A DNA stretch of 64,000 nt from Bacteroidaceae bacterium (GTDB lineage Bacteria > Bacteroidota > Bacteroidia > Bacteroidales > Bacteroidaceae): NCBI GenBank assembly GCA_017560125.1, contig JAFYOS010000029.1, positions 1 through 64,000 of the forward strand, written 5' to 3'. Numbering within the stretch: the first letter of the stretch is position 1; the number at the start of each line of letters is the position of its first letter. The position numbers and the translations under genes were made by a program. Under the pieces are notes generated by a model. It was not told the origin of the DNA. It saw nothing but the letters and a program-made list of their open reading frames with translations, and did not search any database. Positions 1 to 19,250 of this stretch are shown piece by piece.

Positions 1-88
1 CACCTCTTCCCATCCCGAACAGAGAAGTTAAGCCCAACCGCGCCGATGGTACTGCATTTAGTTGTGGGAGAGTAGGTCGTCGCCACTT
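1..88 (+). rRNA. rrf: 5S ribosomal RNA, 3' part (cut by window edge)
   Basis: The first bases read CCCATCCCGAACAGAGAAG, the conserved loop B/helix III part of bacterial 5S rRNA. They continue through GGGAGAGTAGGTCGTCGCC, the conserved loop E/3' region. The 5' part of the gene lies outside the window. The rRNA operon therefore runs left to right and ends here. The exact 3' end (around 86-88) is estimated from the usual end of the family. Confidence 0.93.
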
Positions 89-97
89 TTTTTCTCG

Positions 98-135
98 AGT
101 TCCCTTGGTTCTTACGAACTGAGGGAACTTTTTTT
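98..135 (+). terminator. Terminator of the rRNA operon
   Basis: AGTTCCCT (98-105) pairs with AGGGAACT (122-129), with a second short GTTC/GAAC pairing inside. The stem is followed by a run of T residues. It lies directly after the 5S gene. Confidence 0.8.
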
Positions 136-523
136 GTATATGCACTCCACGTTGTTCAGCCTGGTTGTAGGCCTCTGAAAGGCAGTTTAACGCTGTTTTG
201 TGTGTTCTTATGGTAAAATATAAACCTAAATGTGATAAGCGTCGTTAGAGCGCGTATGGATTTATATTACATCAAATTGTTTTAAGCCTAGTATTCCTGC
301 CTAGTTTTGCATATATTCTTCTCTCGCTTTGAAAAATATTAAAGCAAGCTTTATATTTCTCGCTCGTTTGTCACTATATTTGACATCGAAATTATTATAT
401 AATTTGCAAACTTGTTTTTTGCATAGCTAACGCCTTTTAATTACTTTTGAGATAAATCTTGAAGATAGGATGCGATTCTGAATAAAATTCAAATAAATGT
501 GATATTATTCGCTCGCCTTTCAT
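136..523. other. Gene-free AT-rich spacer
   Basis: I see no credible coding frame, tRNA or repeat here. A TATATTTG-like box occurs at 375-382, but no TTTG lies at the expected distance upstream, so I do not call it a promoter. The spacer separates the rRNA operon from the structured RNA that follows. Confidence 0.5.
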
Positions 524-531
524 TATCTTTG
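524..531 (+). promoter_or_regulatory. -7 box of the structured RNA
   Basis: TATCTTTG matches the Bacteroidota -7 consensus TAnnTTTG. The -33 element is weak: TGTG at 498-501 with a 22-nt spacer. Transcription should start at about 536, just before the folded region. Confidence 0.55.
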
Positions 532-535
532 CATC

Positions 536-783
536 GTTCTTAGGACAATAGTTCTTTGAACGGACATATTTAATTATAGGGCGTTTAGCAAAATTATCCC
601 TCACTTGAATCTGGACAATTCAAACACCGTGGATAATGAGCAAGAAACGCCCACGTCTGTGGTATATATATCCCGCATGGGATTGTTATATATCATTGGG
701 CGTGGGCTTTGCTTATTATATACGGTTGAGGCAGTCCAGAGCCTAAGTGAGATATATAAGCGAAGTTCCCACGTCCTTTTTTT
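536..783 (+). ncRNA. Structured small RNA, possibly 6S-like (Bacteroidales-1 type)
   Basis: Several nested helices are visible by eye. Domain one: GGGCGTTT (579-586) with AAACGCCC (645-652), ATTATCC (593-599) with GGATAAT (631-637), and TTGAAT (605-610) with ATTCAA (618-623). Domain two: an AU-rich stem 661-668/687-694 capped by TCCC-GCAT-GGGA (671-682). Domain three: CGTGGG (701-706) with CCCACG (768-773), continued by 707-721 with 753-765, then seven T residues at 777-783, as in an intrinsic terminator. A promoter box sits just upstream. The frame read through it (605-829) is not a protein gene. From memory, similar sequence is often mis-annotated as a small protein in other Bacteroidales. 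The link to 6S RNA is an inference from size, structure and taxon. Confidence 0.6.
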
Positions 784-834
784 ATTTATCCGCTTTCATC
801 GGGGAATTGTGAGGGCAAGAAAATATTAAATATT

Positions 835-1197
835 ATGGATGAGAGAATTAACTGTCTCTTGAGCGAAAATGAAAAGAAAGAGCTTGTATCTCAAATTGAA
901 AATTTTCTTAGCAAGTATTGGGCAAAATGTGTCGAGTCGTTAATCTATGAATGGACAATCATTAATATTTATGATGTCAAAGTCTCGATAGAATCTATAA
1001 ATGAAATAGTGAAAAACTTTTGGACTTTCGAAGCTATAGCCAATGTAGTAACTTCTGAACAATCAACATCTGTAACAATTGAAAAAAAGATGTCTTTAGT
1101 GGGTAATGTTCAATTTATATCTCGTGAAAATTCTTCTATTGATAAAACCTTGATTCCCGAAGTTAAAAATATTGTAATAACCCAAATCAAGGGGTAA
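835..1197 (+). CDS. Hypothetical protein, 120 aa
   Basis: I do not recognise this protein. It is AT-rich and acidic to neutral, has no signal peptide or membrane segment, and has an N-terminal half that looks helical (residues 8-60) with Ser/Thr-rich strands after it. It begins 51 nt after the T-run that ends the structured RNA, so it may be read by leaky termination or from a promoter I could not identify. The next gene starts one base after its stop codon, so the two are very likely cotranscribed. A small immunity-like or remnant accessory gene is possible but not shown. Confidence 0.55.
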   Translation: MDERINCLLSENEKKELVSQIENFLSKYWAKCVESLIYEWTIINIYDVKVSIESINEIVKNFWTFEAIANVVTSEQSTSVTIEKKMSLVGNVQFISRENSSIDKTLIPEVKNIVITQIKG

Positions 1198-1198
1198 T

Positions 1199-1429
1199 AT
1201 GAGGCAAATAACAGAAGATCTTTTCAATCAAATAGTTTCGGAAAAACCTCAAAATGTAGTCCTTGTGAAAATGTTTGATTCATACATATATATAGAATTG
1301 GACGCTGATATAGTAGGTGAACATCCTAGTGTGATTTCAAATGCTATTCATAAATTTATTAGAGGATTAGGGTATATTGAGAATGACGCAAATTTTGAAA
1401 TGTCTTATTATGCGAAAGGTTTAAAATGA
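1199..1429 (+). CDS. Hypothetical protein, 76 aa
   Basis: Not recognised. The frame starts at an ATG one base after the preceding stop (TAATATG), which suggests translational coupling with the 120-aa gene upstream. The product is small and soluble, with no signal sequence. Composition is AT-rich like its neighbour and unlike the housekeeping genes beyond 5 kb, so the pair may be acquired DNA. The BspA-like gene fragment starts 13 nt downstream. Confidence 0.5.
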   Translation: MRQITEDLFNQIVSEKPQNVVLVKMFDSYIYIELDADIVGEHPSVISNAIHKFIRGLGYIENDANFEMSYYAKGLK

Positions 1430-1442
1430 AAATAATTTGTTT

Positions 1443-1736
1443 ATGAGAAATATTAAACAACTGCTGATGACAGTAGCAGTGCTACTGTGCAGCGTAGCAG
1501 CGAGCGCCCACGACTTTGAAGTGGATGGAATATTTTATAAAATTTCGTACGATGACGCTATTGTGACCTTCAAAGGACAGAGGAGTGATCAGTATTCTAA
1601 TGAATATTCGGGTAGTGTTGTCATTCCTGAAGAAGTAACTTATAATGGAAAAACTTACAGCGTTACAAGCATAGGAAGTGATGCGTTCTCTGGTTGCAGT
1701 GGTCTTACAAGTGTAACAATCCCTAACAGCGTTACA
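1443..1736 (+). pseudogene. BspA-like leucine-rich-repeat surface protein, 5' fragment
   Basis: The ATG at 1443 opens a signal peptide (MRNIKQLLMTVAVLLCSVAA, cleavage near SAH) followed by a short N-terminal region. The first BspA-type LRR_5 repeat follows, with the motif SIGSDAFSGCSGLTSVTIP. The frame then enters foreign sequence and stops four codons later (1743-1745). The rest of the same gene resumes at 3547. Joining 1736 to 3547 gives one unbroken frame of about 561 aa in which VT is followed by SIGSAAF, as the repeat pattern predicts. BspA-like proteins are secreted or surface-exposed and often bind host or bacterial partners. As it stands the gene is interrupted and probably yields only a secreted stub. 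Confidence 0.85.
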
Positions 1737-1749
1737 AAAATTTAACACG

Positions 1750-1770
1750 ATTTTATAGTTTCGTTACATA
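1750..1770 (+). repeat. Left inverted repeat of the insertion
   Basis: 21 nt, matching the reverse complement of 3509-3529 at 20 of 21 positions (A versus G at the sixth position). Confidence 0.8.
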
Positions 1771-1960
1771 GTTTTCCCACTTTCTACCAAGTAAACCACC
1801 AAATCCGTTTACTTCTTTAGATGTTATATGTAGTATTGGCTACTTACTTTTTTGTTTTTTGCTAATAGAGGAATAATGAAAGAAGATAATTGATTTGCCA
1901 GAATCCTTGGCTGTATGCCTTACCCTGAAGGATGGGTAGTGGGTAAAAGGGTAAGAAAAT

Positions 1961-1981
1961 CCCCACCTTAGTTGGGTGGGG
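1961..1981 (-). terminator. Terminator of the two cargo genes
   Basis: CCCCACC (1961-1967) pairs with GGTGGGG (1975-1981). Read on the minus strand, the hairpin is followed by ATTTTCTT, so it would end transcription of the 339-aa gene 20 bases after its stop codon. The stretch between it and the left repeat (1771-1960) holds no gene I can support. Confidence 0.65.
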
Positions 1982-2000
1982 TATTTAATTATCAACACAA

Positions 2001-3020
2001 TTAGAACCTACTATGGGTAGTTATGATAGATTCAAATAGGTGTATTCCTGTGGCAGTTTCAAATTCACTTTTTGAAACACATCCCTTGAATTTGAACATT
2101 TGCAAATACTCTATATCACCAAAATAGTCTTGTTTGTCTTGTTGAATAATATCTGCAATTTTGGCTATTTGATTTATAAATTTGAGTAAATGATATGAAG
2201 ACTGAAACCTATAAATTGCCCATAAATATCTATCTGTACTATCTAACCATTCATCATCTTTGTTGAAAATTCGCCCGCTTTCTTGATGTAGATTTTCTTC
2301 ATAGGTCAAAAATACAAATTGTTTCCTAATATCAAACGATAGATAACTAAAAGTAGAATCATCTTTTTTATTGCCCAATACTTCTTCCCACTTATGTGAA
2401 GGTCTTCCACTATATCCACTCTTACATTTTTGTATAAAATCCATAATGTCCTTAGGGTGAAGAAGGCTTCCTGGGTTTTGACTTAGTATTTGTCCATTTA
2501 ATTCTTCACCATTAATGGTGAATTGACATTTGTTATCGGTGATTTTCTTAATTAGTTCTACTTCTCCATTGGGAGCAAACCGATAAAAGTTAATACTGAA
2601 AGGTCCAGCACCATATGCAGGATGTGGGGATTTCTGTCCACCTTTAATTTCTATAACATCACAAATAAATGGTGAATTGCTACTGTTTTCAGAGGGTTCT
2701 GTATTAAGCCTAACAGAAAACTGCATATTGGGATAACCAATAATAGCTCCTCTAAATCCATTCAATATGTTTTTATCTATTTCTTTGGGTTCTACAAAAG
2801 TGAATGAATAATATTGGCTGATTTCAATTGGTTTCCCGTTATTATTAGGAATGATATTTGCAAGTATATCACCATCATTAAGACCTTCTACAACTTGAAC
2901 ATCCAAATAATGGGCTGATAACTTCAATGTTTCTCCGTATATCCAAGGGTGTGAGTTTTCAACCAAACAAAATTCCCAAGTTCTTTCATTTTTATGGTTA
3001 TATATTTTTTGCCATAACAT
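2001..3020 (-). CDS. Hypothetical protein, 339 aa, cargo of the insertion
   Basis: I do not recognise this family. There is no signal peptide or membrane segment, so it is probably cytoplasmic. The N-terminal 200 residues look beta-rich and contain a Gly/Pro/His stretch (IEIKGGQKSPHPAYGAGP). The C-terminal part looks helical (about 260-310). It lies 12 nt after the 127-aa gene and should be translated from the same transcript. Its place in a small transposase-free insert beside a PUA/EVE-like gene suggests the pair acts together, possibly in defence or nucleic-acid modification sensing. That role is inference from context only. Composition is AT-rich compared with the core genes. Confidence 0.6.
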   Translation of the reverse strand: MLWQKIYNHKNERTWEFCLVENSHPWIYGETLKLSAHYLDVQVVEGLNDGDILANIIPNNNGKPIEISQYYSFTFVEPKEIDKNILNGFRGAIIGYPNMQFSVRLNTEPSENSSNSPFICDVIEIKGGQKSPHPAYGAGPFSINFYRFAPNGEVELIKKITDNKCQFTINGEELNGQILSQNPGSLLHPKDIMDFIQKCKSGYSGRPSHKWEEVLGNKKDDSTFSYLSFDIRKQFVFLTYEENLHQESGRIFNKDDEWLDSTDRYLWAIYRFQSSYHLLKFINQIAKIADIIQQDKQDYFGDIEYLQMFKFKGCVSKSEFETATGIHLFESIITTHSRF

Positions 3021-3032
3021 TGTTCTAATGTT

Positions 3033-3416
3033 TTAATCTTCTTCAAAGGTGGATTCTATATAACTAAGCAATTCAATATTGTTTTTCAAGGGATGCTGTA
3101 GACTTTTTCCACCCTTGAAACCGTGTTGGGCAAGATCATCTTCATCCAACTTGTTTCCTGTGTATTCCTTGACCAATTCCAACTTATATGTGAAGTGCAT
3201 ATTGGGCTTAATTTGCCAATAAGCAATATCAGTTCTATCACAATCTTTGGCAACTACTTTTGTCTTGAAAGCAACTTTTCTTTCATCAGACATAAAAAGG
3301 AATACAATATCACCAACTTCAAAGTTTGTTCGGTGCATTGTCCAATTTATATATCCAAGTTCCATCAGGGCTTCCCTGTGATGGCAACTTTTTCTTTGTG
3401 CGAAGGCTAACCACAT
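3033..3416 (-). CDS. PUA/EVE-like domain protein, 127 aa, cargo of the insertion
   Basis: Residues 25-75 read WTMHRTNFEVGDIVFLFMS followed by a strand ending in VVAKD. This is the layout of PUA-like/EVE domains: aromatic, then GDIVxLY/F, then a V-rich strand. Such domains bind modified bases and occur in restriction and HNH-type defence proteins. The tail GFKGGKSLQHPL resembles the segment after this domain in some HNH endonucleases, but no HNH or other nuclease motif is present here. The protein is soluble and stands alone. It is the first gene of the minus-strand pair, read from a promoter in the right inverted repeat. The family call is from motif recognition and needs a profile search. 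Confidence 0.55.
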   Translation of the reverse strand: MWLAFAQRKSCHHREALMELGYINWTMHRTNFEVGDIVFLFMSDERKVAFKTKVVAKDCDRTDIAYWQIKPNMHFTYKLELVKEYTGNKLDEDDLAQHGFKGGKSLQHPLKNNIELLSYIESTFEED

Positions 3417-3496
3417 AATACAAAAAAATAGGTTAATCTTATTCTTGATTTACAAAGTGGCTTTTCACAATTGTAAAGTATAAATTTATATATGCA

Positions 3497-3527
3497 CAAA
3501 ATTACTAATATGTAACGAAACTACAAA
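3497..3527 (-). promoter_or_regulatory. Promoter of the cargo genes, overlapping the right inverted repeat
   Basis: On the minus strand TTTG (3524-3527) is followed after exactly 19 nt by TAATTTTG (3497-3504). This matches the Bacteroidota consensus TTTG-N19-TAnnTTTG. The -33 box lies inside the right inverted repeat, so the end of the element drives its own cargo. Confidence 0.65.
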
Positions 3528-3529
3528 AT
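3509..3529 (-). repeat. Right inverted repeat of the insertion
   Basis: Reverse complement of the left repeat with one mismatch. It contains the -33 box of the cargo promoter. Confidence 0.8.
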
Positions 3530-3546
3530 AATATCAAGGAATTACA

Positions 3547-4938
3547 AGCATAGGAAGTGCTGCGTTCTCTTATTGCAGTGGTCTTACAAGCGTTACAATT
3601 CCTAATAGTGTTACAAGCATAGGCTCACTCGCGTTTAATAATTGTACAAATTTGGAAAGAATATGTATGTTTCCTAGAATGGCAATATCTTGTGAAAAAG
3701 ATGTCTTTTCGGAAAGCACCTACAACAATGCTTTGCTATATGTTCCGCAAGGAAGGGAATTTGCATATTCAAAGACTGAGCCTTGGTCGAACCTCTATAT
3801 ACAGGGAATGAAAAGCTACAATGTTACCTATAAGATTGATGGCGAAGTTTATGAAACATATTCGGTAGAATGTTTCGCGGAAATCCCAACGCCTGATTCC
3901 CCTACAAAAGAGGGATATACATTTATGGGTTGGAGCGAAATTCCTTCGTATATGCCCGAAAAAGATATTGTTATAAATGGCTCTTTTGTGGTAAATAAAT
4001 ACACCGTTGCCTATGTGGTCGATGGCGACACAATAGCCACCGATAGCATTGCTTATGGCGCAGAAATTACACCTATTGCAGCTCCCGCGAAAGAGGGTTA
4101 TACCTTCAGTGGATGGAGCGAAGCGCCCGCCACGATGCCTGCAAATGATATTGTAATCCGTGGCTCGTTTGAAATAAATACTTATGTGGTTACATACATT
4201 GTAGATGGAGTGACTTTTGCAACTGATAGCATAGTATTTAATGGTGACGTGGCATTGATTCCTGCTCCTGCGAAAGAGGGTTATACCTTCAGCGGATGGA
4301 GCTACGCGCCCAAGAAAATGCCGGCGGAAAATATCACTATAAGTGGTTCGTTTGCAGTGAATTATTACACCGTTGTCTATGTGGTCGATGGCGACACGAT
4401 AGCAACTGAGAGCATTGCCTACGGTGTGGAAATTACACCTATCGCAGCTCCTGCGAAAGAGGGTTATACCTTTAGTGGATGGAGCGAGGCGCCCTCTAAA
4501 ATGCCCGCAAATGATATTGTAATCAGCGCCTCGTTCAGTGTAAATTATTATACACTGACATACATGGTCGATGGCGAGGAGTACAAAGAGGAGCAGATTG
4601 CTTATGGCGACAGCGTTGTGCTGATAGATGCTCCTGTAAAAGAAAATTACATTTTCAGTGGTTGGAGTGGGGCGCCCGTGACAATGCCTGCCGAGGATGT
4701 CACAATCACAGGCTCGTTTGTTCATACAAGTATTTCGAGCGTGTCGGCTGGCGCGATGGTTAAGGTCGATGGCAACAGCATCACTTTGGCCGGGGCTGAG
4801 AATAGCTGTGTGGCTATTTACTCGGTAAGTGGTGCTCTTGTAAATAAATATGATAACTACGACGGCGAAGGGATAGTACTCGATAGAGGTGTGTATGTTA
4901 TTCGCATTGGTGAAAAGACGATGAAAATAAAGCTGTAA
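3547..4938 (+). pseudogene. BspA-like surface protein, 3' fragment with InlB-type repeats
   Basis: This is the rest of the gene begun at 1443. It holds further LRR_5 repeats (SIGSAAFSYCSGLTSVTIP and a second unit) and a linker. Five tandem repeats of the Listeria-Bacteroides/InlB B-repeat type follow, each exactly 61 residues (183 bp), starting at 3817, 4000, 4183, 4366 and 4549. Each carries the pattern YTVxYVVDG...KEGYTFSGWSEAP. The C-terminus (SVSGALVNKY then GVYVIRIGEKTMKIKL) resembles a type IX secretion sorting domain. The frame is open and undamaged apart from the insertion. An internal ATG at 3652 could give a protein without a signal peptide, which would not be exported. Confidence 0.85.
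3817..4731 (+). repeat. Five tandem 183-bp repeats (InlB B-repeat coding)
   Basis: Units start at 3817, 4000, 4183, 4366 and 4549 with an exact 183-bp period. Units two and four are the most alike at the DNA level, for example around TGGTCGATGGCGACAC. The exact period and high identity fit repeat gain and loss by recombination. Confidence 0.85.
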
Positions 4939-4982
4939 ACAGTCCTCTTCGGGTTGCGGAAAGGTCGGCCTGTATAGTGCGC

Positions 4983-5023
4983 AAAATCCCTCGAAAGTAT
5001 GCGAATTGCTTTCGAGGGATTTT
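4983..5023. terminator. Bidirectional terminator after the BspA-like gene
   Basis: A perfect 15-bp stem, 4983-4997 with 5009-5023, containing TCCCTCGAAAG and its complement, with an 11-nt loop. It has A residues before and T residues after it. Confidence 0.85.
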
Positions 5024-5184
5024 GTTTTGTGGTCGAAAATTATTGGTGGTGTGTAAAATATATTTACCACTCAGCGCCGCTTGTCCTTTTTTTTCGATAG
5101 AAATTTGTGCTATCTATTAGCGTTTTCGATAGATATTATCGTAAAAACTGAATATTTCATACTATAAAATTGCAAGAATATAAG

Positions 5185-5192
5185 TAACTTTG
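5185..5192 (+). promoter_or_regulatory. -7 box of the DASS transporter gene
   Basis: TAACTTTG matches TAnnTTTG and is followed by C, 48 nt before the start codon at 5240. No clear -33 box was found. Confidence 0.5.
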
Positions 5193-5239
5193 CACCCGTT
5201 TTGGAGAAATTTATTTTTATTTTATAAAAACCAACAATT

Positions 5240-6742
5240 ATGTTTAAAAATTTTGCAGGCTTTAACATTCTGGAGAAAATTCAGAAGGACAAGCAGGAGA
5301 AAAGAAAAAAACAGCTTCCCGTTAAGCTGATTAAGATTCTTGTGATTACAATTATCAGTGCCGCTGTGGCGTTGTTGCCTACCGAGTCGTTCGGTATCGA
5401 AGGACTGACAGCTGTTCACCAGCGTATTATTTCGCTCTTTGTGTTTGCTGCTTTGATGTGGCTTACAGAGGCTTTGCCTTCTTGGGTTACCTCTATGATT
5501 GTGGTTACCGTAATGTTGTTTACCGTTTCTACAAGTGCATTCAGTTTCCTTCGCCCCGAAGATCCTGCAGCTGCTTCAGGTTTGGTTCCTTTCAAGAGCA
5601 TCATGGCTTGTTTTGCCAATCCTACAATCATGCTGTTCATCGGTGGATTTGTGCTTGCAATCGGATTGACAAAGGTTAAGCTCGATGTGGCTCTCGCTCG
5701 TTTCCTTTTGAAGCCCTTCGGTACACGTTCGGAGGTTGTGTTGCTTGGTTTTATCCTTGTAACAGCTATCTTCTCGGCTTTTGTGAGCAACACTGCTACT
5801 GCTGCCATGATGTTGGCTTTCCTTACTCCCGTGTTGCGCCAGCTGCCTGCTGACGGTAAAGGTCGTATCGCTCTTGCACTTGCAATTCCCATCGGTGCAA
5901 ACCTCGGTGGTATGATGACTCCCATTGGTACTCCTCCCAACATGATTGCTCTCGATTACCTCTCTTCTATCGGCATGGGTATCAGCTTTGTTGACTGGAC
6001 TATCAAAATGACTCCTTTTGTATTGGTACTTCTCTTCCTTGCTTGGATGTTGCTTCGCTTTATGTTCCCCTTCAAGCAGAAGAACATCGAGATTAAGATC
6101 GAGGGTGATATTGAGTGGAACTTCCAGACATGGTCAGTGGTTGCTGCTTTCGCTGTAACTATCTTCATGTGGATGTTCGGTACCGACCTTTGGGGTGTGG
6201 ATACTAACGTAGTTGCGATGTTGCCTATCGCTATCTTCTGTGCAACAGGTATCCTTACTCGTCGCGACCTTGAGGAGATTAACTGGAGCGTTCTGTGGAT
6301 GGTTGCCGGTGGTTTCGCCCTCGGTGTTGCCCTCAACTACAAGGGTGCTGAATGCAACAGCTTGAGCAACTTGATTGTAAGCTCTGTTCCCTTCGGTGAA
6401 TTCTCTCCCATTGCTGTGATGATTCTTGCTGGTCTCATCTGCTTCGGCTTCTCTAACTTCATTTCTCACTCGGCTGCAACATCATTGCTCGTTCCCGTGC
6501 TCGGCGTTGTTGCTGTAGGTATGTCGGATGCTCTTGCAAATGTAGGTGGTGCTCAGGCTATGTTGGTAGGTATTGCTATCGCTTCTTCAGTTTCTATGAT
6601 TTTGCCTATCAGTACTCCTCCCAATGCTATCGCTCACTCAACAGGCTTTATCGAGCAGAAGGATATGATGAAGGTGGGTATCACTATCGGTGTCCTTGGT
6701 ATTATCCTCGGATATTTGATGTTGATTTTCATCGGTTTCTAA
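5240..6742 (+). CDS. DASS/SLC13-family sodium-coupled anion transporter
   Basis: This 500-aa inner-membrane protein has at least ten hydrophobic segments. It carries the two SNT-type signatures of the divalent anion:sodium symporter family: SNTATAAMM (residues 183-191) and SNFISHSAAT (near 405). The usual PIGTPPN and PISTPPNA loops follow the two signatures. Family members import dicarboxylates such as succinate or fumarate, or sulfate, with sodium. The substrate cannot be told from sequence. The N-terminal 30 residues are charged and cytoplasmic. It stands alone between terminators, and its codon choice suggests high expression. A LysR regulator follows with its own promoter and could control it. 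Confidence 0.9.
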   Translation: MFKNFAGFNILEKIQKDKQEKRKKQLPVKLIKILVITIISAAVALLPTESFGIEGLTAVHQRIISLFVFAALMWLTEALPSWVTSMIVVTVMLFTVSTSAFSFLRPEDPAAASGLVPFKSIMACFANPTIMLFIGGFVLAIGLTKVKLDVALARFLLKPFGTRSEVVLLGFILVTAIFSAFVSNTATAAMMLAFLTPVLRQLPADGKGRIALALAIPIGANLGGMMTPIGTPPNMIALDYLSSIGMGISFVDWTIKMTPFVLVLLFLAWMLLRFMFPFKQKNIEIKIEGDIEWNFQTWSVVAAFAVTIFMWMFGTDLWGVDTNVVAMLPIAIFCATGILTRRDLEEINWSVLWMVAGGFALGVALNYKGAECNSLSNLIVSSVPFGEFSPIAVMILAGLICFGFSNFISHSAATSLLVPVLGVVAVGMSDALANVGGAQAMLVGIAIASSVSMILPISTPPNAIAHSTGFIEQKDMMKVGITIGVLGIILGYLMLIFIGF

Positions 6743-6772
6743 TATAGAAACAGCATAATAACATAAATACAT

Positions 6773-6804
6773 AAAGAGGCGTCGCTATATTGCGGCGCCT
6801 CTTT
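6773..6804 (+). terminator. Terminator of the DASS gene
   Basis: AAAGAGGCGTCGC (6773-6785) pairs with GCGGCGCCTCTTT (6792-6804), one G-U pair, followed by GCTTATTT. Confidence 0.8.
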
Positions 6805-6931
6805 GCTTATTTAAATATGTTGTATAAATATTAAGTATTGTTATCCGCAGGGTGAATTTATGCAGTTTGTTGCATAAAAGCTTGTTTTTTGCCGAAAAAT
6901 CGCTATCTTCGCAAAAACAGGATTTTAGTAT

Positions 6932-7837
6932 ATGGAATTACGACAGCTGAAATATTTTGTGATGAGCGCGGAGTATCTCAATTTTTCGGAGGCCGCAAAG
7001 CATCTGTTTATTACGCAGAGTACGCTGTCGCAGCAGATTAAGCAATTGGAATTCGAACTGGGTTTTCCTCTGTTCACGCGCAGCAGTCGTCGCATGGTGC
7101 TCACCGAGGCGGGCGAGGAATTTCTGCCGTTTGCCCAGAAGACCATACGGGATGCCGAGGATGGTGTGCAGCGCCTACACGACCTGCAGCATGTGAAGGC
7201 CGGTACGTTGCGCGTGGGTGTAACGTACAGCCTCAGCTCGATGCTGACCGAGGGATTGATGCGTTTCATGAAGCACTATCCCGATGTGAAGCTGAATATA
7301 TGCTACGAAACAGTTAACCGCTTGCTGGAGCTGCTCAAGGAGCGCAAGCTCGATTTTGTGCTGTCGTACAAGCCTGTGAACGATATGCCCGAGATTGATT
7401 CCATATCGCTGTTCGAAAATCCCCTTTCGGCGGTTGTTGCTGTCACGCATCCGCTTGCCGAAAGAGGTCGCATATCCCTGGCCGAAATGCAGAACTACCC
7501 CTTAGTGCTGCCATCGAAGGATTTGCAGGCGCGCATGATGCTCGAGCGTTTGATGCAGGGTAAGGATTTTTCGCTGACATCGCAAGTGGAGCTCAACGAA
7601 ACGAATATTCTGTTGCAATTGGTTTCTACGGGCAACTATGTGACGGTGCTTTCGGCTTCGGTGGTGTTTGATAACAAGCGTTTCAAGGCGGTTCCGCTCG
7701 ACGAGCCGGACAACACCATGACGGCCTCCATGTTGACGCTGAAGGGCGCCTATCAGAAGGCTTCGGCTGCGGCGTTCATAAATATATTGCTTGATACGGA
7801 TGCTGTGAAGCGGCGAGCAATAATAGGGTGTGATTGA
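6932..7837 (+). CDS. LysR-family transcriptional regulator
   Basis: The 301-aa protein begins MELRQLKYFV and has the family's winged helix-turn-helix in residues 1-60 (FSEAAKHLFITQSTLSQQIK). A substrate-binding-like effector domain follows from about 90 to 295 (GTLRVGV, then typical alternating strands). Length is normal for the family. TATCTTCG at about 6902-6909 is a likely -7 box just upstream. LysR proteins usually bind near a divergent or neighbouring target gene. The DASS transporter upstream runs in the same direction, so its control by this regulator is only possible. A gene for a small membrane protein follows. Confidence 0.92.
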   Translation: MELRQLKYFVMSAEYLNFSEAAKHLFITQSTLSQQIKQLEFELGFPLFTRSSRRMVLTEAGEEFLPFAQKTIRDAEDGVQRLHDLQHVKAGTLRVGVTYSLSSMLTEGLMRFMKHYPDVKLNICYETVNRLLELLKERKLDFVLSYKPVNDMPEIDSISLFENPLSAVVAVTHPLAERGRISLAEMQNYPLVLPSKDLQARMMLERLMQGKDFSLTSQVELNETNILLQLVSTGNYVTVLSASVVFDNKRFKAVPLDEPDNTMTASMLTLKGAYQKASAAAFINILLDTDAVKRRAIIGCD

Positions 7838-7914
7838 TGCGCTTCCCCCGTGCGGGCGTGTCGCACACAAATAGAGTGAGTGATATTAGTATGTGATTTT
7901 TTAATTTGTTGATT

Positions 7915-8082
7915 ATGATCTGGCTGGTAATTTTTGTTATTGTGACGATCGGTTTTGTTTTCAAATGTATAGACAAGGTGCGCACTATTACGAAAAAGGA
8001 GCGCGACAGACGCAACATAATTGACGAAATGGAAATTCACGAATTGTTGGAGCATTATAAGGATTTCGACGACTACGATTGA
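7915..8082 (+). CDS. Small membrane protein, 55 aa
   Basis: An ATG at 7915 opens a frame of 55 codons ending at TGA 8080-8082. The product starts MIWLVIFVIVTIGFVFK, one clear membrane helix. A charged, probably helical cytoplasmic tail follows, rich in Lys/Arg then Glu/Asp (KKERDRRNIIDEMEIHELL) and ending in an acidic DFDDYD. No family is recognised. It lies between the LysR gene and the CotH-like gene on the same strand. The codon pattern and clean membrane-plus-tail design support a real gene, but its expression is unproven. Confidence 0.55.
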   Translation: MIWLVIFVIVTIGFVFKCIDKVRTITKKERDRRNIIDEMEIHELLEHYKDFDDYD

Positions 8083-8146
8083 GGTCGCAATGCTTCTGTG
8101 CAAATTTGTATAATAGTTGAATGATAATAGGTTTGAGCCTGTTTAT

Positions 8147-9670
8147 ATGAAAAAGGTTTGGCTGCTGTTGACCATGCTCGCTGTTGCATGGGGAGTATCG
8201 TCGTGCGACGACAGCAATGATTTTTCGGATGTTGAAGCCCCCGTGGCCGCCCGGCTCGAGGGTTTCCGTTTTTTGGCAAGCAATAACCTCATGTCGCTTA
8301 TTTCCGATGTGGAATGCTCGGTGGTGGGCGACAGCCTCGTCGATTGCCATATTCCCCATATTGTCGATGGCAAGGTGCTTGTTCCCTCGTTCGAAGTGGA
8401 GGGCGGTAGGCTCATGCTCAATGGCGAGGAGGTGATAAGCGATGTGACGGCATTGGACTGCTCGCGCCCGTTGAATATGGAGCTGGTCGGCACAGACCAC
8501 TCGAGCGCGTGCCGCCTCTGTGTGAAATGCTTCACAGGCTTGCCCGTCGTTTATATCGACACGGAGAACAAGGCTGCCATCACCTCCAAAGAGGAGTATC
8601 TAAAGGGTATAATGCGCGTGGTAGAGGATATTGTGACGCGTGGTGCGGGCGATGTCTTCGAGTGCGCCGTCAATATCAGGGGGCGCGGAAATTCTACATG
8701 GGGCTTCCCGAAAAAGCCGTATAAAATAAAATTCGACGAGAAATTTTCGCTGCTTGGCGAGCCTGCCGACAAGGAGTGGGTGCTGCTTGCCAACTACACC
8801 GACAAGACATCGTTGCGAGGCGAAACGGCCTTCGACCTTGGCCGAATGAGCAACCTCGATTATACCCCGCGCACACATTTTGTAGAGCTGATACTGAACG
8901 GGGTGTATAGCGGCACCTATCAGCTTTGCGAACAGCTGAAGGTGGCGGAACAGCGAGTGAATGTGGGCGACGACGGCTTTCTGCTAGAGATTGATTCCAA
9001 GGCTTCGGCCGCTGATGTTACATTCGATATTGCACACATAGGGCAACCGATAAATATAAAAGAGCCCGCCGTGCTGGTTGGCGACGAGGCCTATAGCTAT
9101 GTGAAGCGCTTTATCGAACAGGCTGATGCAGTCCTGTTCGGTGCGAATTTCAAGGACGAGGCCGAAGGATATGCGAAATATCTCGATGTGGAATCGTTTG
9201 TCGATTGGTATTTGATAAACGAAATAGGCAAGAACAACGACGCCTGTTTCTTTACAAGCTGCTATATGAACCTGTCGCGTGGCGGCAAACTGAAAATGGG
9301 CCCTCTTTGGGATTTTGATATAGCATTTGGAAATGTGAATTACAACGGCTGTGACGATCCCGAGGGGTTTTGGATAAAGAGGGTGCCGTGGTTCACCCGC
9401 ATGTTCGAAGATGCCCGTTTTGTGGAAAAAATAAAGGAGCGTTTTGCCTGTTTCTACGAGTCGCGCGAGAGCATTTATGCCGAAATAAATGCCAATGCCG
9501 ACTATCTGAAATATTCGGCGGTGGAGAACAACAACAAGTGGAATACGCTATACAACTATACATGGCCTAACAATCTGATTTGGGGCGCTTACGAGAACGA
9601 AGTGCAGTCGATGAAGATGTGGCTCGAAAAGCGTTTCCAATGGCTGAACGAGCAGTTCGCTGCAATGTAG
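8147..9670 (+). CDS. CotH-kinase-like lipoprotein
   Basis: I place the start at 8147, because MKKVWLLLTMLAVAWG followed by VSSC is a lipoprotein signal; the longer frame from 8117 adds ten non-signal residues. After a short N-terminal beta domain, the CotH family core is clear: NIRGRGNSTW, KKPYKIKF, EWVLLANYTDKT, LRGETAFDLGR and GPLWDFDIAFG. CotH proteins are atypical kinases first known from spore coats. Bacteroidota encode many as surface or periplasmic lipoproteins whose substrates are unknown. The length (about 507 aa) is usual. The gene stands alone, with the lon promoter downstream. Confidence 0.85.
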   Translation: MKKVWLLLTMLAVAWGVSSCDDSNDFSDVEAPVAARLEGFRFLASNNLMSLISDVECSVVGDSLVDCHIPHIVDGKVLVPSFEVEGGRLMLNGEEVISDVTALDCSRPLNMELVGTDHSSACRLCVKCFTGLPVVYIDTENKAAITSKEEYLKGIMRVVEDIVTRGAGDVFECAVNIRGRGNSTWGFPKKPYKIKFDEKFSLLGEPADKEWVLLANYTDKTSLRGETAFDLGRMSNLDYTPRTHFVELILNGVYSGTYQLCEQLKVAEQRVNVGDDGFLLEIDSKASAADVTFDIAHIGQPINIKEPAVLVGDEAYSYVKRFIEQADAVLFGANFKDEAEGYAKYLDVESFVDWYLINEIGKNNDACFFTSCYMNLSRGGKLKMGPLWDFDIAFGNVNYNGCDDPEGFWIKRVPWFTRMFEDARFVEKIKERFACFYESRESIYAEINANADYLKYSAVENNNKWNTLYNYTWPNNLIWGAYENEVQSMKMWLEKRFQWLNEQFAAM

Positions 9671-9726
9671 GGCGTTTGGGCGCGTTGCGGTTGCTATTGC
9701 TCGGCATTAAAAATAACTAAAGTTAT

Positions 9727-9757
9727 TTTGTATTGCGCTCACTTTATTGTAAATTTG
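9727..9757 (+). promoter_or_regulatory. Promoter of the lon operon
   Basis: TTTG (9727-9730), a 19-nt spacer and TAAATTTG (9750-9757) match the Bacteroidota consensus fully. The start codon of lon lies about 98 nt downstream. Confidence 0.75.
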
Positions 9758-9854
9758 CAAAAGTGGAGGTTTGTGCGATGGTGTTTCGTACTTGATGACG
9801 CCGTCGTATGTTCCATGTTGAATGATTTATGTTTGAATAATAATTGTAATAGAT

Positions 9855-12291
<2,437 letters not shown>

Positions 12292-12302
<11 letters not shown>

Positions 12303-13422
12303 CCTATTACATAAAGACAATGGCTCCGAGGCCCGTGCCGGTGTGTTGCACACCGCGCATGGCGACATCGAGACCCCCATATTCATGCCGGTGGGCACTG
12401 TCGGCTCGGTGAAAGCTGTGCAGATGCCCGAGCTGGTGACCGATATCAAGGCTCAGATAATTTTGGGCAATACCTATCATCTGTACCTTCGTCCCGGACT
12501 CGATGTGCTGAAGAATGCCGGCGGTCTGCATAAGTTCAACAGCTGGAACCGCCCCATACTCACCGACAGCGGTGGCTTTCAGGTGTTTTCGCTCAAGGAT
12601 ATTCGCAAGCTGCGCGAAGAGGGTGTCGAATTCCGTTCGCACATAGATGGTTCGAAACACTTTTTCTCTCCCGAGCGCGTGATGGATATTGAGCGCACCA
12701 TCGGAGCCGACATCATGATGGCCTTCGACGAGTGCCCTCCGGGCGATTCCGATTACAACTATGCCAAGCGCTCAATGGAGCTCACACACCGCTGGCTAGA
12801 CCGTTGCATTGCCCGTCTGAACGAAACGGAACCCATGTATGGCTACGAGCAGGCATTGTTCCCCATTGTGCAGGGCTGTGTATATCCCGAATTGCGTCGT
12901 CGCTCTGCCGAATATATCGCATCCAAGGAGTGTGCCGGCAATGCCATCGGTGGTCTTGCAGTGGGCGAGCCCACCGACAAGATGTACGAGATGATTGAGG
13001 TGGTGAACGAGATACTTCCCAAGGACAAGCCCCGCTATCTGATGGGTGTAGGTACTCCGGCCAACATACTCGAGGCTATCGAGCGTGGAGTGGATATGTT
13101 CGATTGTGTAATGCCCACCCGCAACGGCCGTAACGGTATGCTCTTCACCAAGAACGGTATAATGAACATGCGCAACGAAAAGTGGAAGAACGACTTCTCG
13201 CCCATTGAAGAGGACGGTGCTTCCTATGTCGATAGGCTCTATAGCCGTGCATATCTGCGCCACCTGTTTGTTTCGGACGAACTGCTGGCATTGCAGATTG
13301 CTTCGTTGCACAACCTTGCCTTCTACGTGTGGCTCACCGGCGAGGCGCGCAAGCACATTTTGCTCGACGACTATGCGTCGTGGAAGAAGGAGATGCTCGA
13401 AAGAGTCACTTACCGTCTTTAA
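12292..13422 (+). CDS. tgt: tRNA-guanine transglycosylase, zinc-cysteine-free form
   Basis: The 376-aa protein exchanges guanine-34 in GUN anticodons for the queuosine precursor preQ1. Visible family motifs are TDSGGFQVFSL, MAFDECPPGD, GGLAVGEP, YLMGVGTP and DCVMPTRNGRNG. It starts with GTG at 12292, inside the end of lon. The C-terminal zinc site is altered. Where Escherichia coli has C-D-C-Y-T-C before YSRAYLxHL, this protein has Gly309, Ser311 and Asp314, and only the histidine (His340) is kept. I recall this as a feature of Bacteroidota enzymes, so it is probably functional. The residues after the altered site (YSRAYLRHL, IASLHNLAFY) are normal. Confidence 0.93.
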
Positions 13423-13516
13423 TAAGAAATTGTCAGGAATTTTATAAATAATTCTTATTGAGGTTGTTCCCGCGGTTTGCCGTTGTGCGACAGGGGTGCC
13501 TCTTAACCGAAAAACG

Positions 13517-14632
13517 ATGGGTTTAAGATTATTCAAAGGTTTTTTCATAAAGAGGATAGACTGGTATATAATATCCAAGTTCCTCGGAACATATTTCTTT
13601 GCCATTGCGTTGATTATTTCAATCGTTGTAGTGTTCGACTATAACGAAAATATCGACGATTTTACAAATTACAATGTTCCGTTGAAGGCTATCATCTTCG
13701 ACTACTACATGAACTTTGTACCCTACATAACAAATATGTTCAGTGCATTGTTCGTGTTTATCGCCGTCATATATTTCACATCTAAACTGGCCGACAACTC
13801 CGAGATAATTGCGGCTTTTGCTTCGGGTGTGAGCTTCAAGCGCCTGTTGCGCCCCTATATGATTTCGGCCGGTATAATTGCTGTTCTCACATATGTGCTT
13901 GGTGCCTACATGATACCGCTCAGCAGTCAGACGCGCATCGATTTCGAGGTGCAATACAAGGGCAAGGATCAGATAGAAACAGCGCGAAATATACAGCTCG
14001 AAATTGACGCCAATACCATTGCCTACATCGAGCGATACGAAAGTCGCAACAAAACCGGTTACCGATTTTCGTTGGACAAGTTCGAGGACAAGCGCTTGGT
14101 TTCCCACATGACGGCGCGCACCATCACCTATCATCCCGAAGAGAAGTACAAGTGGACGGCCAAGGGTTGGACCATACGCGAGCTCTACGACGACAAGGAG
14201 GTTATACGCTCCGATATGCGCAATGCGCTCGATACGGTTATTCGCTTCGAACCCAGCGACTTCCTTATCACCTTGGGTATGCAGGAAACGATGACCAGCC
14301 CCAAGCTGAAGGCCTACATAGAGCAGCAAAAGGCTCGCGGAATGGCCAATGTGAAGCCCTTCGAAGTGGAGTATCACAAACGAATAGCGATGTCATTCGC
14401 CGCCTTCATCCTCACGCTCATCGGTGCTTCGCTCTCGTCGAAAAAGACAAAGGGCGGCATGGGATTGTCGCTTGGAATAGGTTTGGGACTAAGCTTCTCG
14501 TACATTCTTTTCCAGACCATATCATCGACATTTGCGCTTAACGGAAATACCCCTGTGGTGATTGCAGTGTGGTTGCCCAATATACTATATAGCTTCATTG
14601 CGGCCTATCTCTATTGGAAGGCCCCCAAATAA
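13517..14632 (+). CDS. LptF/LptG-family permease (YjgP/YjgQ)
   Basis: I choose the ATG at 13517 (MGLRLFKGFF). An upstream ATG-like extension to 13496 adds only polar residues. The 371-aa protein has the family pattern: one N-terminal membrane helix (YIISKFLGTYFFAIALIISIV), two more before residue 130, a large periplasmic beta-jellyroll (about 140-280), and three helices at the C-terminus. LptF and LptG form the inner-membrane part of the ABC transporter that lifts lipopolysaccharide to the outer membrane. Bacteroidota often encode such permeases apart from lptB. Whether this is the F or G partner is not clear. It lies in the lon-tgt-helicase gene run. Confidence 0.85.
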   Translation: MGLRLFKGFFIKRIDWYIISKFLGTYFFAIALIISIVVVFDYNENIDDFTNYNVPLKAIIFDYYMNFVPYITNMFSALFVFIAVIYFTSKLADNSEIIAAFASGVSFKRLLRPYMISAGIIAVLTYVLGAYMIPLSSQTRIDFEVQYKGKDQIETARNIQLEIDANTIAYIERYESRNKTGYRFSLDKFEDKRLVSHMTARTITYHPEEKYKWTAKGWTIRELYDDKEVIRSDMRNALDTVIRFEPSDFLITLGMQETMTSPKLKAYIEQQKARGMANVKPFEVEYHKRIAMSFAAFILTLIGASLSSKKTKGGMGLSLGIGLGLSFSYILFQTISSTFALNGNTPVVIAVWLPNILYSFIAAYLYWKAPK

Positions 14633-14640
14633 TTGCATAC

Positions 14641-16065
14641 ATGGATTTTTATGATATAGATTTCGAGGACGAGGTGCTCGATGCCCTCGATGCCATGAAT
14701 TTCAGGGAGTGTACTCCCATACAGGAAAAAACCATTATACCGCTGATGGAAGGTCGCGACCTTATAGGCGTGGCACAGACCGGTACCGGCAAGACTGCCG
14801 CCTATCTGCTGCCTGTGCTCAATAAATTGTGTCGTGGCGATTACCCTTCCGATGCCATCAACTGCGTGATTATGGCGCCCACGCGCGAGCTTGCACAGCA
14901 GATAGACCGTCAGCTCGAAGGCTTCACCTATTTTATGGATGTGTCGAGCGTTGCTGTCTATGGCGGTAACGACGGCGTGCGCTATGGTCAGGAGCTCAAG
15001 GGTATGAACCTTGGTGCCGATATTCTTGTAGCCACCCCCGGTCGTCTTATCAGCCACATCAGCTTGGGCAATGTAGATTTGTCCAAGGTGTCGTTCTTCA
15101 TCCTCGACGAGGCCGACCGCATGCTCGATATGGGTTTCTACAACGACATCATGACCATTGCCAAGCAGTTGCCAGCCAATCGTCAGACCATGCTTTTCTC
15201 GGCCACCATGCCCGAAGAGATACGCAAACTGGCCGGCAACCTTCTGAGCAACCCTGTGCAGGTGACACTGTCGTTGGCCAAGCCCGCCGACGGCATCACA
15301 CAGCAGGCCTATATCTGCCACGAGGCACAGAAGATGGGTATAATAAAGGATATGTTTTCCAAAGAGAGCGCCGAGCGTGTGATACTTTTCGTTTCGAAGA
15401 AGAGCAAGGTGCGCGAGGTGGCTACCGCTTTGCGCCGCATGGGGCTCAACGTGGGTGAAATGCACAGTGACCTCACACAGAACGAGCGCGACGAGATAAT
15501 GTTCCTGTACAAGAGCCGCAAGATAGACCTTCTTGTTGCCACCGACATTCTTGCTCGCGGTATCGACATCGACGACATACGCATAGTGATAAACTACGAT
15601 GTGCCGGGCGATTGCGACGATTATATACATCGCGTGGGACGTACTGCGCGTGCCAATACACAGGGACGAGGCATCACGCTTGTGAGCATCAACGACCAGC
15701 TGGCGTTCAAACGAATAGAAAATTTCATCGGCAAGGATATCGATAAAATACCGCTTCCCGAGGGGCTGGGCGAGGCGCCTGAGTATAACCCCAAGAAGCC
15801 CGAAAAGAGCAACGGCAAGGGTCGTCGCGGTCATTCGTCGTCGGGTAGGGGAGGCAAGCATGGTAAAAAGGGTGGTGCCCCCAAGGCGCAGGGCGACGCT
15901 TCGGCAAAGAGCAGCGCCAAGCAACAGCCTGCAACGCAGAAACCCGCGCGGGGCGATGCCGCTTCGAAAAACGGCGCGCCACGTAACAAGAAACGCAGAT
16001 ATTACGGAAAGCGCAAGAATGGCTCGCAATCGTCGGGCGGCGCTTCGGAAAACAATAAGGGTTGA
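14641..16065 (+). CDS. DEAD-box RNA helicase
   Basis: The start at 14641 (MDFYDIDFED) fits better than the upstream frame, which overlaps the previous gene. Helicase motifs appear in order: TPIQEKTI (Q motif), AQTGTGKT (I), PTRELAQQ (Ia), LDEADRMLDMGF (II), SATMP (III), LVATDILARGIDID (V) and HRVGRTAR (VI). After about residue 385 comes a long, basic tail rich in Gly, Ser, Lys and Ala, typical of RhlE/CsdA-type helicases of Bacteroidota and likely to bind RNA non-specifically. Such proteins act in ribosome assembly, cold adaptation or mRNA decay. The stop codon lies inside the terminator hairpin. Confidence 0.94.
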   Translation: MDFYDIDFEDEVLDALDAMNFRECTPIQEKTIIPLMEGRDLIGVAQTGTGKTAAYLLPVLNKLCRGDYPSDAINCVIMAPTRELAQQIDRQLEGFTYFMDVSSVAVYGGNDGVRYGQELKGMNLGADILVATPGRLISHISLGNVDLSKVSFFILDEADRMLDMGFYNDIMTIAKQLPANRQTMLFSATMPEEIRKLAGNLLSNPVQVTLSLAKPADGITQQAYICHEAQKMGIIKDMFSKESAERVILFVSKKSKVREVATALRRMGLNVGEMHSDLTQNERDEIMFLYKSRKIDLLVATDILARGIDIDDIRIVINYDVPGDCDDYIHRVGRTARANTQGRGITLVSINDQLAFKRIENFIGKDIDKIPLPEGLGEAPEYNPKKPEKSNGKGRRGHSSSGRGGKHGKKGGAPKAQGDASAKSSAKQQPATQKPARGDAASKNGAPRNKKRRYYGKRKNGSQSSGGASENNKG

Positions 16066-16084
16066 GCAATGCTCAACCCTTATT
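16054..16084. terminator. Bidirectional terminator between helicase and proC
   Basis: A perfect 14-bp stem, 16054-16067 with 16071-16084 (AATAAGGGTTGAGC and its complement), with a 3-nt loop. It contains the helicase TGA stop and serves both converging genes. Confidence 0.85.
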
Positions 16085-16104
16085 GTTTATGTAAATATAT
16101 TTCC

Positions 16105-16893
16105 CTATTTGCTCGCTTTCAGTCCGCGTATGACAGCCGATGTAAATCCGGCCTCTTCCATTTCGTTCAGTCCCTTGATGGTGATGCCGCCGGGGGTAGT
16201 CACCTTGTCAATCTCCGTTTCGGGGTTGTTGCCGCTTGCCAGCAGCAGTTCGGCAGCGCCCTTCACTGTGTGGCTCACTATTTTTTGTGCATCGGCAGGG
16301 CGAAATCCCAGTTCCACACCACCTTCGGTGGCAGCGCGTATGTAGCGCATTGCATATGCTATGCCGCACGAGGCAAGCGCGGTGCCGGCCGCTATCAGCT
16401 TCTCTTCGACAAGCATAGTGCAACCAAGCTCGTCGAACAGCCCAAGAATGGTTGCCTCCTGGCTTTTCGATGCGCCATGCGAAGCTACAAAGGTCATGCT
16501 GCTTTTCAGAGCTATCGCCGTATTGGGGATAACGCGGAACATGGCGGGTTGCTCGTCCTCTTTTGTAAGGTATTTTCCGAGCTCGTCGAACGTCACTCCG
16601 GCTGCCACCGAAACGACAATCTGCTTTCCGTAGTCCAGTTCCTCTTTTATTTCGTTTATGATGTCGGCTACAAGCCAGGGCTTCACGGCGATAATCACAA
16701 TATCGGCTGCTTTTGCAGCCTCACGGTTGTCCAGCGTCACTGCAATCTCGGCACACTGTTTTTGCAACCTCTCGAGCGTGCTTGCCGATTTTGCAGTGCA
16801 GACAATGTCGGCGGCCGATATTTTTGTGCCTTGTGCAAGCCCCATGGCTATGGCGCTGCCCATGTTTCCCGAACCTATTATTGCTATCTTCAT
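16105..16893 (-). CDS. proC: Pyrroline-5-carboxylate reductase
   Basis: I start at 16893 (MKIAIIGSGNMGSAIAMGL), the usual N-terminus with its Rossmann NAD(P)-binding motif; upstream residues lack family character. The 263-aa product reduces 1-pyrroline-5-carboxylate to proline in the cytoplasm. Typical segments are VIIAVKPW, VSVAAGVTFDELGKYL and FRVIPNTAIALKSSMTFV. The C-terminal dimer domain carries GTALASCGIAYAMRYIRA and VTTPGGITIKGLNEME. Length is normal. It is a single gene convergent with the helicase, so its promoter should lie in the spacer before the thioesterase gene. Confidence 0.94.
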   Translation of the reverse strand: MKIAIIGSGNMGSAIAMGLAQGTKISAADIVCTAKSASTLERLQKQCAEIAVTLDNREAAKAADIVIIAVKPWLVADIINEIKEELDYGKQIVVSVAAGVTFDELGKYLTKEDEQPAMFRVIPNTAIALKSSMTFVASHGASKSQEATILGLFDELGCTMLVEEKLIAAGTALASCGIAYAMRYIRAATEGGVELGFRPADAQKIVSHTVKGAAELLLASGNNPETEIDKVTTPGGITIKGLNEMEEAGFTSAVIRGLKASK

Positions 16894-17003
16894 ACTAAAA
16901 TATATTTCCACAAAAATAGTGCTTGTTGTTTGCAAAACAAAAAACCGAAGGGCTTTATATTCCCTTTGCCGCTGAAAAATGTGGTCGGTAAATGAATTTT
17001 ATG

Positions 17004-17011
17004 TATCTTTG
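17004..17011 (+). promoter_or_regulatory. -7 box that decides the start of the thioesterase gene
   Basis: TATCTTTG lies inside the longest possible reading frame (from 16992). Transcription would begin at about 17017, so translation must start at the ATG at 17037 or 17043, not upstream. Confidence 0.6.
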
Positions 17012-17036
17012 CACAAAATTAAAAATTTGTGCACGA

Positions 17037-17513
17037 ATGACAATGAAGAAGATTAAGAATCCCTGGATTGGAAAAGAGGGATATTTTTGTGTAGGTTGTT
17101 GCCCCACCAACGAGGCCGGTCTGAAAATGGAGTTTTACGAGGATGGCGATGAAATTGTATCCTATTGGCATCCGCAGGAACGTTACCAAGGATGGATAAA
17201 TGTGTTGCATGGTGGCATTCAGGCGCTTTTGCTCGACGAGATAAGCGGTTGGGTGGTGTCGCGTAAGCTGCAGACTGCTGCCGTTACTGCCAAGATGGAG
17301 CTGCAGTACAAAAAATCTATCTACACTACCGAGGATTGCCTTGAAATTCGTGGCAAAATATTGAGCCAGCGTCGCAACCTGGTGGAGATAGAGGCCAGCA
17401 TCTACAATAGCGAGAAGGAGCTTTGTTGTCGCGCGGTATCTACCTTCTTCTGCCTGCCCAAAGAGAAGGCGGTGGCCGAAATGGGCTTCGAAGATTTCGA
17501 GCTCGAGGATTAG
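17037..17513 (+). CDS. PaaI-like hotdog-fold thioesterase
   Basis: The 158-aa product (MTMKKIKNPW) has the hotdog thioesterase signature LHGGIQALLLDEISGW, where the Asp/Glu pair following HGG forms the active site, and the strand TAKMELQYKKSI after it. An N-terminal CVGCCPTNEAGLKMEF segment is common in Bacteroidota members of this group. It probably hydrolyses an acyl-CoA; the substrate is unknown. The start is set by the promoter box at 17004. The gene is alone and ends at a good terminator. Confidence 0.85.
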   Translation: MTMKKIKNPWIGKEGYFCVGCCPTNEAGLKMEFYEDGDEIVSYWHPQERYQGWINVLHGGIQALLLDEISGWVVSRKLQTAAVTAKMELQYKKSIYTTEDCLEIRGKILSQRRNLVEIEASIYNSEKELCCRAVSTFFCLPKEKAVAEMGFEDFELED

Positions 17514-17530
17514 TATATCGGGTATCATAT

Positions 17531-17565
17531 AACAGCCCGCTTCCCTTCGGGGGGCGGGCTGTTTT
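17531..17565 (+). terminator. Terminator of the thioesterase gene
   Basis: AACAGCCCGC (17531-17540) pairs with GCGGGCTGTT (17554-17563), then TTT. Confidence 0.85.
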
Positions 17566-19165: not shown

Positions 19166-19186
19166 TTAGTGTAGCTATTAGGATAA

Positions 19187-19219: not shown

Positions 19220-19250
19220 GTTTATGTATCATGTGTATGTTATTGCTCTT

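Follow-up and report, generated by a model that had tools for sequence, protein, structure and literature searches.

A probable non-autonomous inverted-repeat cassette with defence-type cargo in BspA-like LRR genes of two Bacteroidaceae genera

Background

MITEs are short elements with inverted repeats and a flank repeat that have no transposase of their own, and internally deleted derivatives belong to their usual picture. MITEAba12 is an example of such bacterial MITEs, or non-autonomous elements derived from insertion sequences (IS), in the accessible part of its description (PMC6382973). Another class of enzyme-free DNA is formed by the dif/pdif modules of Acinetobacter, which are moved by host XerC/D according to the accessible parts of two reports (PMC13141974, PMC6449649). 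With regard to cargo, EVE-domain modified-base readers occur in contexts of type IV restriction and of defence, as stated in the accessible part of their description (PMC7641849).

In this paper, an insertion of 1,805 bp is compared with these systems. It occupies positions 1739..3543 (no strand assigned) of the window, that is, the whole 64,000-nucleotide stretch of a Bacteroidaceae contig that was analysed. The insertion is probably a non-autonomous inverted-repeat cassette that is moved in trans, apparently prefers BspA-type LRR repeats (n=2) and carries defence-type cargo kept by selection.

Structure of the insertion and its ends

Two 21-nt inverted repeats lie near the ends of the insertion, at 1750..1770 on the plus strand and at 3509..3529 on the minus strand, and they are complementary at 20 of 21 positions. 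One such separated pair was observed in the region 1400-3900 and none in 300 dinucleotide shuffles, so that the repeats given in a preliminary description of this DNA are confirmed; when palindromes were also allowed, in an earlier count, 4 of 200 shuffles contained a pair. The repeats begin 11 and 14 nt inside the ends that the element has in common with a second copy, found in the genome G626 and described below. The left outer end, AATTTAACACG (1739..1749, plus strand), lies outside the inverted repeat and is identical over all 11 nt in G626, and the right outer end, AATATCAAGGAATT (3530..3543, plus strand), which also lies outside the repeat, is identical at 12 of 14 nt. The element can be described as two ends of about 35 nt, each made of AATT, 7-10 variable nt and the 21-nt inverted repeat, around a short cargo of two genes. 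The outer ends are unequal, with 7 nt on the left and 10 nt on the right between AATT and the inverted repeat, and such unlike left and right outer ends are unusual for a classic transposon. The left element end may in part resemble an Xer half-site.

The limits of the element follow from the comparison by blastn of the two copies, in which homology begins at AATTC and stops abruptly at TTAAATT, placing the element at 1739-3543. Limits of 1737..3541, with TTACAA at both edges, had been proposed previously. The insertion itself is real and TTACAA is present at 1732-1737 and 3542-3547, but the ends shared with G626 shift the limits and leave the hexamer only partly in the flank. Directly outside the shared ends are ACAAA (1734..1738, plus strand) and ACAAG (3544..3548, plus strand), a candidate 5-bp target duplication with agreement at four of five positions, and the flanks in G626, GTGAC and GTCAC, agree to the same degree. 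Read in an alternative register, the 6-bp TTACAA would be duplicated without mismatch in the window, but not so in G626. The flanks of both copies are consistent with 5-bp target duplications carrying one change apiece.

As stated in the preliminary description, the insert brings no recombinase: neither of its ORFs matches a known one, and none was recognised by eye among the ORFs of at least 150 aa in the 64-kb window. The source genome is 98.5% complete and 6.4% contaminated. No further copy of the repeat was found in it at 1 mismatch in 15 or 3 in 21, and the whole insert, searched as DNA, matches itself alone there. Against 101 relatives, the same search returned the source genome and a 92-nt match in G029 that represents the family of the 127-aa cargo gene, and no match to the element DNA was obtained in plasmids or phages.

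A second copy in another genus

The search for further copies used the repeat and was run blind to cargo and host. Among 399 genomes of the family, scanned with at most 1 mismatch, 16 match the repeat and 2 have it as a convergent pair, namely the source genome and G626 (JAFYQQ010000004.1, Bacteroidaceae bacterium RGIG7333), a MAG from water buffalo cecum that belongs to another genus. The scan of genome_contigs with the 19-nt core gave 3 stretches, of which one holds a pair, in the same record as G626, and two hold single sites. When 3 mismatches were permitted, 129 of 393 genomes of the order matched; a reversed-pattern control matches many as well, most of these matches look like chance, and no other convergent pair on one contig is present among the matches listed. 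The viral scan with the 15-nt repeat core yielded 29 contigs with one exact site each. We attribute to chance the weak second sites with 5-6 mismatches in L055, L067, L069, L073 and the genome locus L039, as well as the single matches L049, L081 and L082, which fall within long ORFs.

The element in G626 measures 693 bp, of which 597 nt align with the window element at 85% (507/597), a stretch that takes in the right end together with the 127-aa gene. At the left end (38 nt) 37 nt are identical, and at the right end (42 nt) 40 nt. Between the aligned parts, on reading of the sequence, a stub of some 27 codons is left of the second cargo gene, which encodes 339 aa in the window. When positions 1-20000 of the window were compared with the 14-kb locus of G626 at E 1e-6, only 1739-1776 and 2957-3543 matched. 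Since the host flanks have no DNA homology at this threshold and only LRR-level similarity as proteins, the two insertions look independent. Independent copies with the same ends at different loci number two, in two genera. A different history would be a single entry into an LRR gene, followed by spread through homologous recombination between similar repeats, and the repeat units of BspA-like genes in congeners, which in many matches agree to about 80-89% over stretches of some 80 nt, would be possible homology arms for it. However, the copies are oriented oppositely to their host genes, each with full ends, and are shifted by 3 bp, with the flanks unlike as noted. Opposite orientation together with complete ends argues against recombination between repeats as well as against inversion between the 21-nt repeats, and the single-entry history is considered very improbable.

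The ends of the two copies are identical at 77 of 80 positions. Fourfold sites of the 127-aa gene agree at 22 of 31 (p 0.0005), and the remaining upstream non-coding sites at 70 of 84 (p 0.009); the windows used for the two ends (42 and 38 nt) were set after the alignment was seen. We read this unusual conservation as selection on mobility; in these two sequences, the ends look maintained. The idea of a non-autonomous mobile cassette, put forward when only one copy was known, is strengthened by a second copy with the same conserved ends, flipped, in a different host gene of another genus. Copies of the repeat around different cargo, which had been proposed as a thing to look for, were not found in these scans, in which only the same cargo, full or deleted, was seen.

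Interrupted gene and insertion target

The BspA-like gene is interrupted, and its 5' part (1443..1745, plus strand) ends in NSVTKI and a stop and matches LRR_5 at E 3e-6 with 27.6 bits against a cut-off of 27.7. The 3' part (3541..4938, plus strand) contains LRR repeats, List_Bact repeats and a T9SS tail that scores below cut-off. The host frame runs on across the insert, from ACA at 1734 on the left to ACA at 3544 on the right, with the 69-nt period in step, as had been observed earlier. This continuity is no evidence of a switch, because any clean insertion with target duplication gives the same result.

It had been suggested that the segment excises or inverts and thereby toggles the surface protein. 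The inverted repeats around the segment, and a frame that continues after clean loss, are what phase variation of this kind would use, and inversions are much reported in Bacteroides, at least in the accessible part of that literature. However, if the segment inverted between the 21-nt repeats, the gene would not be restored and the outer ends would stay behind, whereas the outer 11-14 nt are in fact carried along with each end in the flipped copy. Additionally, no recombinase of the window was recognised by eye and no second arrangement was seen. A phase-variation switch is therefore regarded as very improbable.

Neither an empty nor a filled allele of this locus was found elsewhere. In six congeners (G020, G028, G041, G024, G025 and G017), for which 2.7-7.7 kb upstream were fetched, the place beside the transporter gene has no BspA-like homology, G020 being 92% identical there, so that the empty allele named in the preliminary description as a thing to look for was not found at the matching place in these six; in blastn of window positions 1-8000 against them, no match lies upstream of about 5111-5214. 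Among 61 genomes, the host gene has its best homologue in G028:C4 (75% / 58% aa), on another contig and not in the same place. It is uninterrupted through the repeats, as far as fetched.

Both copies of the element break BspA-type genes between ...NSVT and (T)SIG..., and if the AATT ends are used, the two insertion points lie no more than 3 bp apart in the 69-nt unit. LRR_5 takes up 8,193 of the 2,612,092 bp of the source genome (0.31%) and, in G626, 8,481 bp of about 3.1 Mb (0.27%). Under even insertion, the chance of a second landing in an LRR repeat would be about 0.003 before the matching point in the unit is counted, a post hoc figure from n=2 that insertion tolerance of such genes would raise. 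These figures point to an apparent preference for BspA-type LRR repeats (n=2). The contrary explanation is that the element is mobile but has no real preference for its target, that its LRR sites reflect chance or tolerance and that the cassettes are now dead. It agrees with there being just two copies, one per genome at the mismatch levels searched, and with the reduction of the second cargo gene in G626. Yet both copies are at the same unit point although LRR_5 makes up only about 0.3% of each genome, and ends more conserved than neutral sites are unlike those of long-dead copies. This explanation is unlikely, and the preferred reading of a mobile cassette with a target preference is retained.

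Cargo genes and their relatives

Two genes are carried on the minus strand. Gene 1 (3033..3416) encodes 127 aa and belongs to a family that is often beside defence genes; gene 2 (2001..3020) encodes 339 aa, follows in the same frame after a TAA and has no detectable relative. A terminator-like hairpin at 1961..1981 (minus strand) lies 3' of both genes and was scored on both strands; terminator-like sites in the region number 3, against a shuffle mean of 1.2 (sd 1.0). Single-sequence structure predictions for the two cargo proteins had mean pLDDT of 35 and 33 and were unusable.

Among 393 genomes of the order, the 339-aa protein is matched in its own genome alone. It was found in 0 of 28 genomes with the 127-aa family in a search run without positive control, had no match in plasmids, phages and viral contigs, and gave none below E 0.6 in PDB. 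By sequence comparison, it is an orphan within the searched sets.

The 127-aa family is present in 29 of 399 family genomes, including the source genome. Pairwise dN/dS among the genes of the window, G626 and G670 is 0.05-0.09, dN/dS being 0.05/0.54 between the window and G626 copies, and on these ratios the gene is judged to be under purifying selection. The 127-aa protein had no convincing match in PDB and none in plasmids, phages or viral contigs. The 127-aa domain also forms the N-terminus of longer proteins, at L007 640-1893 (G477, 417 aa) and L099 1480-2598 (G756, 373 aa), which have no Pfam match at E 0.1.

The window gene is nearer to the gene of G670, which is not part of such an element (92.4% nt), than to that of the G626 element (89.0%). 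The 127-aa gene therefore has a history of its own, and the identities count against simple common descent of the two cassettes. The relative in G670 (94% aa; L180 8705-9088) is directly beside a large serine recombinase (9251-10972), and the DNA homology is limited to the gene (91%, element positions 1293-1705) and does not cover the ends. It is as if this gene also travelled by other routes, as a unit between mobile elements.

This neighbour bears on a further alternative, according to which a tyrosine or serine site-specific recombinase, rather than a DDE transposase, acts in trans and the flank repeat of 4-6 bp is the crossover. Such an enzyme would suit the position of the inverted repeats inside outer ends that are unlike each other, and also the target point common to the two genera, the single mismatch of either flank repeat and the serine recombinase that adjoins the G670 relative. 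On the other side, the homology to G670 stops short of the element ends, and no integrase with these ends was found. Site-specific recombination is accordingly rated as unlikely.

Defence context of the 127-aa family

Beyond the source genome and G626, 27 genomes have a match to the 127-aa protein, and the contexts of 14 of the closer ones were examined. Tool-supported defence neighbours occur in 7 of the 14, figures that have no background rate, with neighbours picked by eye and scanned in 9 of the 14 contexts; the rest are without one shown. The neighbours are BrxC/BrxP/PglZ in G029, a type IV enzyme and a PADLOC candidate in G606, GmrSD-type genes in G607 and G677 (PADLOC Orf5, with Pfam GmrSD for the G607 one), a type I-like methyltransferase and an OLD-like ATPase in G554, HsdM/HsdS and GmrSD in G704, and an AAA_15 ATPase in G786, the weakest of the seven. 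An HNH gene in G756 and a GmrSD look-alike recognised by eye in G772 were left out of the count, and by eye no defence neighbour was seen in G057, G603, G477 and G791; the remaining context is that of G670 described above. Additionally, in G025 a GIY-YIG-type (T5orf172) domain is fused to a distant homologue. From this company, the 127-aa protein is probably a phage-defence factor. Its identity as an EVE-type modified-base reader was considered and is a guess not supported by Pfam, with 0 of 16 members matching an EVE model at E up to 1.

Surroundings of the locus

The BspA-like locus sits between a 5S rRNA (window 1-88, cut by the contig start) and the transporter gene. A leader at about 607-790 (plus strand), upstream of 835 and the operon, recurs in congeners. 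G024 has at least 6 copies among the matches listed, 3 of which abut starts of BspA-like genes; at G024:C19, leader and gene abut directly. In the window, about 600 bp (824-1424) with two small ORFs (120 aa and 76 aa) lie between the leader and the BspA-like start, and neither ORF has a family match above cut-off. Nine aligned leader copies support a 33-pair structure (96.9% paired) with covariation of 0.277 against 0.149 in shuffles (0/500), the structure being derived from the same alignment as was used for the covariation test. A second, terminator-like hairpin before a T run, 97.9% paired and with no covariation beyond shuffles, would compete with the first. No Rfam family was reached at threshold, and the leader may act on surface-protein genes as an attenuator or riboswitch-like RNA.

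Proposed mechanism

In the reading that is preferred here, a transposase or recombinase supplied in trans would bind the 21-nt repeats and cut at the outer AATT ends. The cassette would then go in with a duplication of about 5 bp, preferring the NSVT/SIG part of LRR repeats. BspA-type LRR repeats would offer a many-copy target that is presumably dispensable to the cell, and the 127-aa cargo gene would be retained by selection, probably for phage defence. The trans-acting enzyme, its class and the length of the duplication are all inferred. Short flank duplications fit a DDE transposase, and a common target and unlike outer ends fit a site-specific recombinase; neither enzyme was found in the sets searched. 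Against this reading stand the number of known copies, which is two, the mismatch in each putative duplication and the unlikeness of the left and right outer ends. An autonomous element with these ends was not found in the 399 family genomes at one mismatch or in genome_contigs with the exact core, nor was one present as a convergent pair among the matches listed in the 3-mismatch scan of 393 order genomes; the recombinase with ends matching the repeat, named in the preliminary description as a thing to look for, was likewise not found in the 399 family genomes at one mismatch.

A wider interpretation would see here a family of LRR-homing, enzyme-free cassettes for which BspA-type repeats are a dedicated, many-copy landing site throughout Bacteroidaceae. 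They would ferry defence genes and silence one surface protein wherever they land. This interpretation is tentative, and rather doubtful as it stands. Small cassettes of the enzyme-free kind are easily missed and may nevertheless disseminate defence genes. Should the preference for LRR repeats be real, surface-protein repeats would be a safe harbour for mobile DNA, and gaining a defence gene would go together with losing a surface protein. With the ends and the target defined, more copies and the enzyme can be sought directly.

Comparison with known systems

Among the matches listed in a literature search whose coverage is mostly without subscription journals, no title describes this element. 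As described in the accessible parts of the reports, the dif/pdif modules resemble it in being gene cassettes that lack a recombinase and are moved in trans, but they are bounded by Xer sites and described on plasmids, whereas the target here is a coding repeat. Invertible promoters and segments of Bacteroidales, as far as their accessible descriptions go, also have a segment that lies close to a surface gene and is flanked by inverted repeats; in the present cassette, however, the ends outside the repeats travel along, no invertase was recognised and orientation would not restore the gene.

In its cargo, the closest likeness is to the EVE readers, to which we liken the 127-aa protein as presumably a small single-domain protein with homologues beside type IV/GmrSD, BREX and type I genes. 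The fusion of its distant homologue to the T5orf172 domain adds to this likeness, and the failure of every one of the family members compared to match Pfam EVE separates the two.

The likeness to MITEs lies in the short length, the inverted repeats, the missing transposase, the flank repeat and an internally deleted derivative, that of G626. The cassette differs from them in its two intact genes with their terminator-like hairpin and in that no parent IS was found, in ends that are unlike outside the inverted repeat, in its one copy per genome and in its LRR targets. It works like a passenger element of the MITE type or cassette type, and a named IS family is not claimable without a parent. 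What makes it unusual is defence-type cargo in so small an element, together with the repeated landing in LRR coding repeats.
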